The position numbers and the translations under genes were made by a program. Shown here piece after piece: positions 4,321-7,114 of a stretch of 64,000 nucleotides of DNA. The stretch's first letter is position 1. Each line of letters begins with the position of its first letter. The DNA lies in NCBI RefSeq assembly GCF_001425665.1, contig NZ_LMCX01000001.1:310001-374000 (forward strand), given 5' to 3'. Under the pieces are notes generated by a model. It did no database searches and was not told the origin of the DNA. It was given only the letters and a program-made list of their open reading frames with translations. Source of the DNA: Yonghaparkia sp. Root332. Its GTDB lineage: Bacteria; Actinomycetota; Actinomycetes; Actinomycetales; Microbacteriaceae.

Positions 4321-5205
4321 TCAGTAGAGCGTCTCGCCCAGCAGCCGGTCGAGCATCTCGCGCCCCTGCCCGGCGAAGACGAGGTCGTCGTGCTCGAGCG
4401 CCCACGCGATCGTCGCGATCGCCTGCACGGCGTGGAAGGCGTGCAGCACGGCGTGGTCGCGCTCGTCGGGGCGGCGACCGTAGCCGTCGAGGAAGGACTC
4501 GCGCAGCAGCGGGGCGTCGAGCCACTCGCGCTGCTCGAGGCGGAACAGGTCCACCGCCCACGGCTCGAACTCGACGGCGGCGAAATCGATGAGGCGCACG
4601 TGGCCGTCGGGGCCGAGCATCCAGTTGCGGGAGGAGTTGTCGCGATGCGCCGGAACCATCGGCAGCGGCCCCAGCTCGAGCGAGGTCGCCGCGATTCGCT
4701 GGGCGATCTCGAGCTCGGCCTCGCTCGCTGCGTCGCCGACGCGGTCGGCCCAGTAGGCGAACTTCGACATGACGGCGTCGCCGAAGTGGTCGTTCACGAC
4801 CGCGGGGGTCGAGTCGTGCAGGCGGCGCAGGACCTCGCCGGCGCGCACGTGCACGACCGGGTCGTGCTCGGCATCCGAGCCCTCGACGAGCTCGCCCGGC
4901 ACGCGCGACAGGATCAGCAGCTGCAGCCGGTCGTCGCTCGCGACCAGGCGCGGAGCGTCGCCGCCGAGCGCGGGCACGTAGAGCTGGTACGCCGAGAGCT
5001 CGCGGTGATAGTTGCGGCCGCCGCGGTGCCACTTCGCGATCGCGCGCTCTTCGCCGCGCGTGCGCACCTCGAGCACGCGCGCCTCGCCGTGCGCCCACGA
5101 GCGGTCGGCGACGACGTCGACGGGCCCGAGCACGCGGTGCACGTGGTCGAGGGCCTCGGCGTCTGAGGCGATCTCCTCGACGACGCTGTCAGGGGCGCGG
5201 TACAC
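4321..5205 (-). CDS. Aminoglycoside/choline-kinase-like phosphotransferase
   Basis: 294-residue APH-fold kinase. Catalytic-loop motif VPAHRDNSSRNWM supplies the H-x-D-x(4)-N signature, and the metal-binding Asp follows in VRLIDFAAVEFEPWAVDLFRL. The N-lobe Lys is probably that of AIAKWHRG, with Glu in YHRELSAYQLY. The start is a GTG with AAGGAG six bases upstream. The substrate is unknown: such proteins phosphorylate antibiotics, sugars, choline or small metabolites. It lies directly downstream of a 27-codon peptide gene and a strong hairpin on the same strand, so it may be expressed by read-through of that hairpin, and the peptide could be a leader or a substrate. Confidence 0.85.
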   Translation of the reverse strand: MYRAPDSVVEEIASDAEALDHVHRVLGPVDVVADRSWAHGEARVLEVRTRGEERAIAKWHRGGRNYHRELSAYQLYVPALGGDAPRLVASDDRLQLLILSRVPGELVEGSDAEHDPVVHVRAGEVLRRLHDSTPAVVNDHFGDAVMSKFAYWADRVGDAASEAELEIAQRIAATSLELGPLPMVPAHRDNSSRNWMLGPDGHVRLIDFAAVEFEPWAVDLFRLEQREWLDAPLLRESFLDGYGRRPDERDHAVLHAFHAVQAIATIAWALEHDDLVFAGQGREMLDRLLGETLY

Positions 5206-5224
5206 GGCGGGCTCCTTCGATACG

Positions 5225-5264
5225 ACGAAGCCCCGGTCACCGAAGTGGTGAGCCGGGGCTTCGT
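5225..5264 (-). terminator. Strong hairpin between peptide gene and phosphotransferase gene
   Basis: ACGAAGCCCCGG and CCGGGGCTTCGT form a perfect 12-bp stem, extended by TCACC/GGTGA across a one-base bulge, with a 5-nt loop. No long T-run follows on either strand. It begins 18 bases past the stop codon of the small peptide gene and ends about 20 bases before the phosphotransferase start. It can be a simple terminator, an mRNA-stabilising element, or an attenuator controlling the phosphotransferase. Confidence 0.8.
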
Positions 5265-5282
5265 GGAGTCAATGACCGATGA

Positions 5283-5366
5283 CTACTGGCAGCTCTCGCA
5301 CTGCAGCATGTCCATCGGGTCGACGGGCACCGCGTAGCCGCCGACGGTCTCGTTGTCGTTGTCCAT
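5283..5366 (-). CDS. 27-residue peptide ending CESCQ, unknown function
   Basis: A free-standing small gene: 27 codons starting MDNDNETVGGYAVPVDPMD and ending MLQCESCQ. The peptide is acidic, has a GGY turn, two cysteines spaced C-x2-C and no membrane segment. Support for it being real: a near-perfect ribosome binding site (AGGAGGT, seven bases before ATG), a promoter with -10 TATAGT and -35 ATGACA, a perfect palindrome over the -35, and a strong hairpin after the stop. The larger open frame to 5552 is an artefact because it runs through the promoter. I do not recognise the family with certainty. It could be a secreted or modified peptide (RiPP-like), a metal-binding mini-protein through CESC, or a leader peptide for the phosphotransferase. 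No radical-SAM, YcaO or LanM gene is nearby. Confidence 0.75.
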   Translation of the reverse strand: MDNDNETVGGYAVPVDPMDMLQCESCQ

Positions 5367-5417
5367 TGCGGACCTCCTGTCGAATCGTTCTCCGGCCTGA
5401 TCGGCCGGTGGAGTCAC

Positions 5418-5447
5418 ACTATATAACGGGAATGACAGGGATGTCAT
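5418..5447 (-). promoter_or_regulatory. Promoter of the small peptide gene
   Basis: On the minus strand, -35 ATGACA (5442-5447, five of six consensus bases) and -10 TATAGT (5418-5423) are separated by 18 bases. Start of transcription is predicted near 5411, giving a leader of about 44 nt that contains AGGAGGT. The -35 hexamer lies inside the palindrome at 5428-5451. Confidence 0.65.
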
Positions 5448-5451
5448 TCCC
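5428..5451. promoter_or_regulatory. Perfect 24-bp palindromic operator
   Basis: GGGAATGACA, spacer GGGA, then TGTCATTCCC: ten-base perfect arms. It covers the -35 box and most of the spacer of the peptide-gene promoter, the classical position for a dimeric repressor. No regulator gene adjoins it, and no second copy was noticed in the window. Confidence 0.7.
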
Positions 5452-5608
5452 CCATATCTAGTGTTTCGGCGTGTCGTGGGCGATTCCTCGGATGCCCGCC
5501 TCGCGGCGCACGCGCAGGCGGCGGCTCCGCGGTCGCCGTAGCCTGGATGCACCGCGGATGCTCCCCGCGGCTCCCCGGGCTGACGCCCCGACAGTCATGA
5601 AGGCCGCC

Positions 5609-6256
5609 ATGCGCTTCTGGTCCCGCCGCGCCGCGCGCGATGAGGCTCGACCGCGCCGCCCGCGCCCCTTCGAGACGCTCGACAACCTCGACCACCTCGT
5701 CGACGAGGGCCATCTCGTCGCCCTCGCGGCGGTGCGCCTGTCGACGAAGAACGAGATCGTCCTGCGCACCCTGCGCGACGGCGGCTCGTGGAACGAGGAG
5801 GACGGGGTCGCGATGGCGCAGCGCGCGGTCGACGCCCTGCTCGTCGAGCTCGGCCAGACGGCGCACCGGCTCGCGAAGGAGACCCAGCGCGCCACGCCGC
5901 TCCCCCTGCCCGACCCGGCCGCTCCCGGCGCGCGTCGACCGGGCCGCGCCGAGCGCGCCCGACTGGCCCGCCTGCGCAAGCACTTCGAGCGTCAGCGCGA
6001 GGAGTCGGAGCGCCTGAGCGCCCGCACCCGCACGATGCGCGGCGTCATGGACCGCCTCCGCACCACGCGACAGGACGACGAGACGCTCCGCGAGATCGCC
6101 CTCCGCGCGCGCGACGACACCCTCACCGAGCTCGTGCAGGCCCGGCTCATCCCCCGACGCGCAATCGTGCGCCAGACGGAGGAGGAGCAGCGCGAGGCGA
6201 TCGCCGGCGTCAAGGCCGACCTCGCGCGGCTGCTCGAGGAGCACGAGGGGTACTGA
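5609..6256 (+). CDS. Hypothetical basic, helical protein
   Basis: About 215 residues, Arg/Glu-rich and mostly helical. The conserved-looking part is PFETLDNLDHLVDEGHLVALAAVRLSTKNEIVLRTLRDGG, followed by a long charged coiled-coil-like half (LRKHFERQREESERLSA, then RTTRQDDETLREIALRARDD). No signal peptide or membrane segment. The start is uncertain: ATG 5609 has AAGG five bases upstream, ATG 5597 is four codons earlier, and the open frame extends further to 5471 without support. I do not recognise a catalytic family. Third-position GC is as high as in neighbours, so it is a real resident gene. Confidence 0.7.
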   Translation: MRFWSRRAARDEARPRRPRPFETLDNLDHLVDEGHLVALAAVRLSTKNEIVLRTLRDGGSWNEEDGVAMAQRAVDALLVELGQTAHRLAKETQRATPLPLPDPAAPGARRPGRAERARLARLRKHFERQREESERLSARTRTMRGVMDRLRTTRQDDETLREIALRARDDTLTELVQARLIPRRAIVRQTEEEQREAIAGVKADLARLLEEHEGY

Positions 6257-6319
6257 GCGACGCCCGTCGGCCCGCGCGCGTGACGGCTGCGCGGTCGCCG
6301 CGGCGCTAGCATCGCGATC

Positions 6320-6952
6320 GTGAGCGCGACCGAGGCCCTGTGGCAGTTCGCGATCGTCGCCGCCCTGCTGACGATCACCCCCGGCATGGACTCCGCCCTG
6401 GTCCTCCACGCCGCCATCCGGCACGGGCGCGGCCCGGCCTTCGCCGCCGGCGCGGGCATCTGCCTCGGCGCCCTCGTCTGGGGCATCGCCGCCGCCCTCG
6501 GGCTCTCGGCGCTCTTCGCCGTCTCGGCGCTCGCCTTCACGGTGCTCAAGGTCGTCGGCGCCGCGTACCTCGTCTTCCTGGGGGCGCGGATGCTGTGGTC
6601 GGCATTCCGCCCCGGCCACGCCGCCGACGCGACCGCGGCGATCGCGGCGCCGGGCATCCGCGCCGCGGCGACGAAGGGGCTGCTGACGACGCTGCTGAAC
6701 CCGAAGGTCGCGGTGTTCTACGTCGCCGTGCTGCCGGCGTTCCTGCCGGCGGACGTGCCGGCGGCGCTCTTCGGGGCGGCGCTCGCGAGCATCCACGCGC
6801 TCGAGAGCGCGGTGTGGTTCACGATCCTCATCCTCGGCGCGCAGGCGCTGCGGCGCTGGATGGCGCGGGAGTCGACGCAGCGCGGCATCGACGTCGTGAC
6901 GGGGCTCGCGTTCGTCGGCTTCGGCGCCGCGCTCGCGTTCACCGAGCAGTAG
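6320..6952 (+). CDS. LysE/RhtB-family amino-acid exporter
   Basis: 210-residue membrane protein with about six helices. Family marks: ITPGMDSALVLHAAIRHGRGPAFAAGAGICLG near the N-terminus, the LKVVGAAYLVFLGARML segment, and KGLLTTLLNPKVAVFYVAVLPAFL (the conserved NPK loop). Start GTG at 6320. Substrate (amino acid or metabolite) not predictable. It is a single gene with the tRNAs converging on it downstream. Confidence 0.92.
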   Translation: MSATEALWQFAIVAALLTITPGMDSALVLHAAIRHGRGPAFAAGAGICLGALVWGIAAALGLSALFAVSALAFTVLKVVGAAYLVFLGARMLWSAFRPGHAADATAAIAAPGIRAAATKGLLTTLLNPKVAVFYVAVLPAFLPADVPAALFGAALASIHALESAVWFTILILGAQALRRWMARESTQRGIDVVTGLAFVGFGAALAFTEQ

Positions 6953-6994
6953 ACCGCGCGCAGGAGGACCCGCGCAGAGCGAGTCGAGAAGAAG

Positions 6995-7068
6995 TAGCGA
7001 GGGCGGGACTCGAACCCGCGACACCACGATTATGAGCCGTGTGCTCTAACCACCTGAGCTACCCCGCC
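6995..7068 (-). tRNA. tRNA-Met (CAT)
   Basis: 74-nt cloverleaf: acceptor GGCGGGG pairing with CCTCGCT (two G-U), D arm AGCTCAGGTGGTTAGAGC, anticodon loop CTCATAA with anticodon CAT, T arm GCGGGTTCGAGTCCCGC. CCA is not encoded. The sequence resembles an elongator tRNA-Met rather than an initiator, which would lack the first base pair and carry GGG/CCC in the anticodon stem. Confidence 0.95.
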
Positions 7069-7114
7069 GGGCATGGCCCCCACCGCGACCCGAGGGCGAC
7101 GACGAGCGAACCAG

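Follow-up and report, generated by a model that had tools for sequence, protein, structure and literature searches.

The small gene on the minus strand of the window (the whole stretch of 64,000 nucleotides analysed here) at positions 5283..5366 most probably encodes the detached C-terminal redox tail of NrdA from a class Ic-like ribonucleotide reductase (RNR), acting in trans, a reading to which we give a probability of about 0.88. According to this reading NrdA itself would lack the CxxC arm that re-reduces the active-site disulfide after each turnover, and the arm would be supplied as free peptides, mostly of 21-35 aa. One peptide would come from an ORF overlapping the nrdA stop and a second one from the unlinked window gene, which would be under apparently the same NrdR-type control as nrdA. 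The peptide would dock on NrdA via the conserved YxVPxDPMDxL segment, the CxxC dithiol of the docked peptide would swap with the active-site disulfide of NrdA, and the oxidised peptide would then be recharged by thioredoxin or a redoxin. Moreover, an arm that is not tethered would have to be abundant, and a second gene with a strong ribosome site could keep the peptide in excess. The trans-acting arm is supported by the position of the sole paralogue detected, between nrdA and nrdB, and by the existence of a separately encoded cysteine domain, NrdJb, that serves an RNR in trans. Against it stands the fact that a free peptide has no tether, which bears on its effective concentration at the active site.

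The peptide gene and its relation to NrdA

The gene runs from an ATG (5366-5364) over 27 codons, MDNDNETVGGYAVPVDPMDMLQCESCQ, to a stop codon (5285-5283), as read on the minus strand. The initial annotation had described it as a real gene with its own promoter, an operator-like palindrome and a strong ribosome site, and the ATG, the 27 codons, the stop, the Shine-Dalgarno AGGAGGT (5372..5378, minus strand), the -10, the -35 and the 10+10 palindrome were all confirmed in the sequence of that strand. Conservation at the peptide level, which it had named as support, is seen within the genus, taken here to be Microcella: the peptide is 89-100% identical in 25 of its 26 genomes. The 26th genome (G014) is 75% complete and the only copy seen in it adjoins nrdB. 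The 16 distinct coding sequences gave a pN/pS of 0.21, with 14 invariant codons, six showing only synonymous variation and seven with non-synonymous changes, and judging from these substitutions the gene is under purifying selection.

No match was found in Pfam or NCBIfam for either of the two peptides tried, and the homology of the tail therefore rests on synteny and on a motif of 15-20 residues. In an order-wide sample of 297 genomes searched with the peptide profile (E<=0.001), 24 genomes matched, namely the source genome, a weak match from the same family (G153) and 22 genomes outside the family. Each of these 22 has a single match, and it always forms the C-terminal end, in frame, of a long NrdA (...DPMERLQCESCQ), these fused proteins ending ...GVACPVDPMERLQCESCQ* and the like. 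The window peptide, homologous to the NrdA C-terminus of the sister families, ends CESCQ* and has its cysteine pair close to the C-terminus, at the same end as in the fused NrdA. On the strength of this comparison the tail peptide is homologous to the C-terminal redox tail of NrdA and was once part of it. In class I RNR the electrons of redoxins reach the active site by way of a C-terminal cysteine pair, according to the available part of PMC5704485.

The genome from which the window comes contains one other copy of the peptide at E<=10, MMDPRDSTVDTVGGYYVPTDPMDDLHCESCQ. It is located between the genes for NrdA (824 aa) and NrdB (327 aa), and the nrdA stop overlaps the GTGATG start of this paralogue. 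The NrdA has ATP-cone, RNR alpha and barrel domains and ends ...RKGFGFGG..., without a CxxC arm. Its nearest solved chain is 5im3, which we take to be the NrdA of P. aeruginosa, and the cysteines of the NCFVM, NLCTE and VCNL stretches, presumably the catalytic ones, are aligned. The nearest solved chain of NrdB is 1syy, which we take to be the class Ic NrdB of C. trachomatis, and a Phe is found where the variant chain 2ani has Tyr, presumably the position of the radical tyrosine. With this trait of class Ic, a Phe instead of the radical Tyr in the alignment to 1syy and 2ani, the RNR of the source can be described as class Ic-like. With PF02867 as with TIGR02506, this NrdA is the only catalytic subunit detected in the genome. 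Both models are silent in three of 14 control genomes, including that of Corynebacterium glutamicum, a species with a class Ib RNR, and a second RNR of divergent sequence might therefore have escaped detection.

The small size of the product and its CxxC end would agree with a RiPP precursor, a metal-binding peptide or a leader peptide, the roles offered by the initial annotation. It was right in pointing to this end as the important one. Nevertheless there is homology between the CxxC end and the NrdA redox tail, the peptide is linked almost perfectly to one type of NrdA (see below) and the adjoining phosphotransferase is not kept beside the peptide gene outside the genus, with one exception, which makes these roles extremely unlikely. 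This phosphotransferase-like gene (294 aa, 4321..5205, minus strand), which the initial annotation had brought in as a neighbour that might bear on the role of the peptide, has no curated family match above cut-off. It is matched at 36 of 79 loci: 35 are of the genus, ten of these being second records of the same loci, and locus L136 is the only one among 42 loci from outside the genus, some of which have short flanks. We regard it as a neighbour outside the system; the search for a RiPP partner covered this one neighbour, kept within the genus and at L136 only. A GC-rich stem-loop with a 12-bp stem (5225..5264, minus strand), predicted by folding, separates the two genes. It is terminator- or attenuator-like and has no T-run, and no canonical terminator was found. 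A similar copy of this stem-loop (5222-5263) is present in the same genome at about 1501-1541 of L003, with 83% identity over approximately 42 bases.

Separation of the tail from NrdA in many Microbacteriaceae

The C-terminal region of NrdA was read at 140 loci, 116 from the family sample and 24 from the genus; that of G252 is cut by the contig end before reaching the stop codon, and the base for NrdA is therefore 139 loci. No cysteine occurs in the last 40 residues of NrdA at any of the 139 loci read to the stop, and at none of them is the tail fused to NrdA, a stop codon being placed between the two. A separate tail ORF is found directly after nrdA at 134 of these loci and is missing at five. 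The catalytic and the thiol-exchange parts are thus on separate ORFs, from which NrdA and the tail are predicted to be separate polypeptides.

Programmed frameshifting or stop readthrough could join the nrd-linked tail to NrdA, in which case the tail would work in cis and the window gene would be a redundant spare. One type of frameshift could serve most loci, since 114 of the 134 tail ORFs are in the +2 frame. However, 13 are in the same frame beyond the stop and seven in the third frame, hence no single event serves all. Moreover 132 of the 134 tails have a start codon in their own frame (ATG, GTG or TTG) between -6 and +30 relative to the nrdA stop, 60 of them at -1 and 40 at +2 (100 of 134 for these two positions), as in translational coupling, and in five genomes nrdA is not followed by any tail. 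The presence of three tail frames therefore speaks for re-initiation by coupling rather than for a single recoding event, and a tail joined to NrdA in this way seems to us very unlikely.

A tail acting in trans on this NrdA also fits the distribution of the two genes. In the family sample of 299 genomes, this NrdA was called in 123 (E<=1e-100) and the peptide in 125 (E<1e-8); the tail is present in all 123 genomes that have this NrdA and in two of the 176 that do not. Both of the latter are draft assemblies, 93-94% complete and split into 120-130 contigs. A further 26 genomes with weak peptide matches (E 1.9e-5 to about 1), none of which has this NrdA, were dropped. In the 176 genomes that lack this NrdA its place is presumably taken by another RNR.

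The five genomes without a tail directly after nrdA (G038, G074, G136, G150 and G298) have nrdB 6-199 nt after nrdA, with no tail in any frame between the two genes, and encode a tail of 27-28 aa elsewhere in the genome. In G038, G074, G150 and G298 this unlinked tail is the only match at E<=1e-4, so far as sequence similarity goes the sole visible source of the tail. Two or more copies of the peptide are found in 117 of the 125 genomes at E<=1, a count that includes weak matches and is not relied on, the copy numbers dropping at E<=1e-4 from four to two in G136 and from two to one in G298. At L127 and L140 (MAG ACE_ACT14) tail genes come in oppositely oriented pairs, with 4-5 kb between the two members. 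Genome G062, likely the same genome as this MAG, has seven tail matches at E<=1, a number suggestive of amplification by a mobile element that carries them. In another Microcella genome (G015) an extra tail forms the C-terminus of an ORF of about 90 residues of unknown function (L058, 2697-3041).

The NrdA of E. coli has a covalent C-terminal redox tail. The class Ic RNR of Chlamydia trachomatis resembles the present one in its NrdB, 1syy being the nearest solved chain, with a Phe at the same place, and to our knowledge no detached tail is known for it. The split NrdA of Aeromonas phage Aeh1 is similar in that a class I catalytic subunit is made in two chains; reportedly a homing endonuclease interrupts it within the catalytic part, and the second chain is not a free tail peptide.

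The closest precedent appears to be the split class II enzyme NrdJa/NrdJb. According to the available part of PMC4520616, the thiol-exchange part of this enzyme in Pseudomonas aeruginosa also has a gene of its own, which adjoins the catalytic gene, and acts in trans, NrdJb being required in vivo; this 2015 paper describes the NrdJ of some Proteobacteria as the only split RNR in a non-viral organism. The available part of PMC5704485 likewise bears on a separately encoded cysteine domain serving an RNR in trans. NrdJa/NrdJb is nevertheless a class II (B12) enzyme encoded in one operon, and NrdJb is a cysteine-rich domain of 229 residues (PMC4520616, available part), whereas here a class I RNR, with NrdB beside NrdA and without a cysteine-rich zinc domain, is accompanied by a 27-aa peptide with two cysteines, by a second, unlinked gene bearing a promoter and by phage and plasmid copies. 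The tails of class I alpha subunits share the C-terminal cysteine pair, and as described in the available text of PMC5704485 they are flexible, fed by redoxins and re-reduce the active site, but they are covalently part of NrdA whereas the tail described here is separate. No prior report of a free class I RNR tail peptide was found in the literature searched, whose coverage leaves out most subscription papers, and the available parts of PMC9669993 and PMC9531940 make no mention of such a tail. RNR is an essential enzyme, and a central question about its mechanism is whether the flexible arm has to be tethered. Bacteria that naturally have a free-peptide arm would offer a clean two-component system in which docking, thiol exchange and arm stoichiometry can be studied.

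Promoter and putative operators of the tail gene

The -10 hexamer TATAGT (5418-5423) and the -35 hexamer ATGACA (5442..5447) of the window gene, both on the minus strand, are separated by a spacer of 18 nt and match the sigma-70 consensus at 10 of 12 positions. This is the only promoter-like site found between 4300 and 6300, the mean in shuffled sequence being 0.1. The promoter elements sit between two sites that resemble NrdR boxes, box 1, CACTAGATATGGGG (5450..5463, minus strand), and box 2, CCCGTTATATAGTG (5417..5430, minus strand), which is placed 33 nt from box 1, overlaps the -10 and is also present in the nrdA promoter. The sites CACTASATRTRGGG and TATATAGTG are common to the window and nrdA promoters, and a pattern drawn from these two promoters had only two matches in 2.63 Mb, namely the promoters themselves. 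When variation was allowed, the pair of boxes was found in 31 of 32 nrdA promoters, the one missed (L034) being one base off, and in 56 of 72 distinct unlinked tail genes. The other 16 have no boxes by the pattern used, and several of them look mobile.

In each window box a C and a G stand at a distance of nine bases, and the offsets between boxes are of 31-33 nt (32 nt at the nrdA of the same genome and 33 nt in the window). In published NrdR boxes GC pairs at a distance of nine are conserved and the two boxes are separated by about three turns, according to the available part of PMC9110341, and the available part of PMC12051234 reports binding of NrdRs to spacers of 14-17 and 24-27 bp. The window offset of 33 nt corresponds to a spacer of about 17 bp, at the edge of the tight NrdR range, and the layout, with two boxes approximately three helix turns apart and upstream of or overlapping the transcription start, matches that of NrdR regulons. 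In addition, the genome has an nrdR gene scoring above the curated cut-off. Because the paired boxes fit the published ones and an nrdR gene is present, we infer that the window tail gene is under NrdR control, with NrdR binding to the two boxes.

The perfect 10+10 palindrome GGGAATGACA-N4-TGTCATTCCC (5428..5451, minus strand) lies over the -35 and is a putative extra operator. Of 56 tail promoters 53 have its AATGACA arm between the boxes, vs none of 31 nrdA promoters, and the tail gene therefore seems to have an additional operator. In its conserved form, GAATGACA-N4-TGTCATTC, this palindrome is observed between the NrdR-like boxes of tail promoters and is absent from nrdA promoters; it is perhaps the site for a second regulator. 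A regulation that is partly different from that of nrdA, to which this palindrome points, would also suit a free copy that acts as a regulator or decoy, competing for thioredoxin or NrdA or sensing redox, with the nrd-linked peptide as the catalytic one. However, the docking-like segment and the CxxC are alike in the window copy and the nrd-linked copy, and in the four genomes mentioned above no tail other than the unlinked copy is seen at E<=1e-4. A regulator or decoy is in our opinion very unlikely, and an arm that acts catalytically in trans from both genes is preferred.

Directly after the promoter the 5'UTR can form a hairpin, CCGGCC/GGCCGG (5392..5408, minus strand, predicted by folding). 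The first 45 nt past box 2 fold below -6 kcal/mol in 54 of the 56 box-bearing tail genes, a count made without a shuffled control that may reflect the G+C content. A motif resembling a Shine-Dalgarno sequence (lax pattern) is found upstream of 53 of the 56 box-bearing unlinked tail genes.

Tails on phages and plasmids

Judging from sequence matches, tail genes are apparently carried by phages and plasmids too. In a scan of viral contigs a tail was found in 63, in most cases encoded by an ORF of 21-35 aa; a few of these tails end a longer small protein or have no ATG or GTG start nearby. No nrdA was found in the stretches examined around the 63 viral tails, and one stretch (L312) has nrdB. Whole records were searched as well, and no RNR catalytic subunit was detected with PF02867 in 50 of them (48 viral contigs and the phages CMP1 and CN1A) or with TIGR02506 in 19 (15 contigs, phage phiPsal1 and three plasmids), many contigs among these 69 records being fragments and the models missing three of 14 controls. 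A PHROG match was obtained for 14 of 20 chosen genes neighbouring the viral tails, and these include three terminases, exonucleases, metallophosphoesterases, an endolysin and an HNH nuclease.

Weak tblastn matches (E 0.02-0.7) placed tails in the Clavibacter phages CMP1 and CN1A and in the Pontimonas phage phiPsal1, at positions without an annotated gene. Their in-frame translations have the ends DPMDEFQCDSCQ, DPMDELICEGCQ and DPMDLLQCTSCQ before a stop codon, and both Clavibacter and Pontimonas belong to Microbacteriaceae. Moreover 19 plasmid records of Clavibacter, Leifsonia and Gryllotalpicola matched (E 5e-5 to 3e-2), and the three plasmid tails that were read all end in C-x2-CQ. A match in a Pseudanabaena phage (46% identity, E 0.3) is probably due to chance.

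These copies can be explained if the RNR arm is a diffusible, shareable redox part, and the phages and plasmids of the family use tails of their own to raise or seize the dNTP production of the host, a proposal to which we give even odds. They would carry tail genes because the host enzyme needs a loose peptide. If this is true, the viral or plasmid tail would be the smallest auxiliary metabolic gene of its kind, and phages could tune the nucleotide supply of the host with a gene of 25 residues. The detached tail would also explain a class of tiny ORFs that are unannotated or misnamed.

One plasmid ORF of 33 aa encoding a tail (L377, 3977-4078, NZ_CP065038.1) is annotated as ribonucleotide-diphosphate reductase subunit beta (WP_223361114.1); this name is probably wrong and the ORF an alpha-tail peptide. 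In L312, a viral contig of 120 kb, positions 5001-7103 contain a free tail, then a gene of unknown function and then nrdB, without nrdA, and this nrdB is about 81% identical to the nrdB of Microcella. At L345 (3400-3771), L362 (130-480) and L372 (4700-5054) two successive small proteins both have tail-like CxxCQ ends (DPANAFACESCQ / DPMDDLQCESCQ and similar), which suggests tails fused to other small phage proteins.
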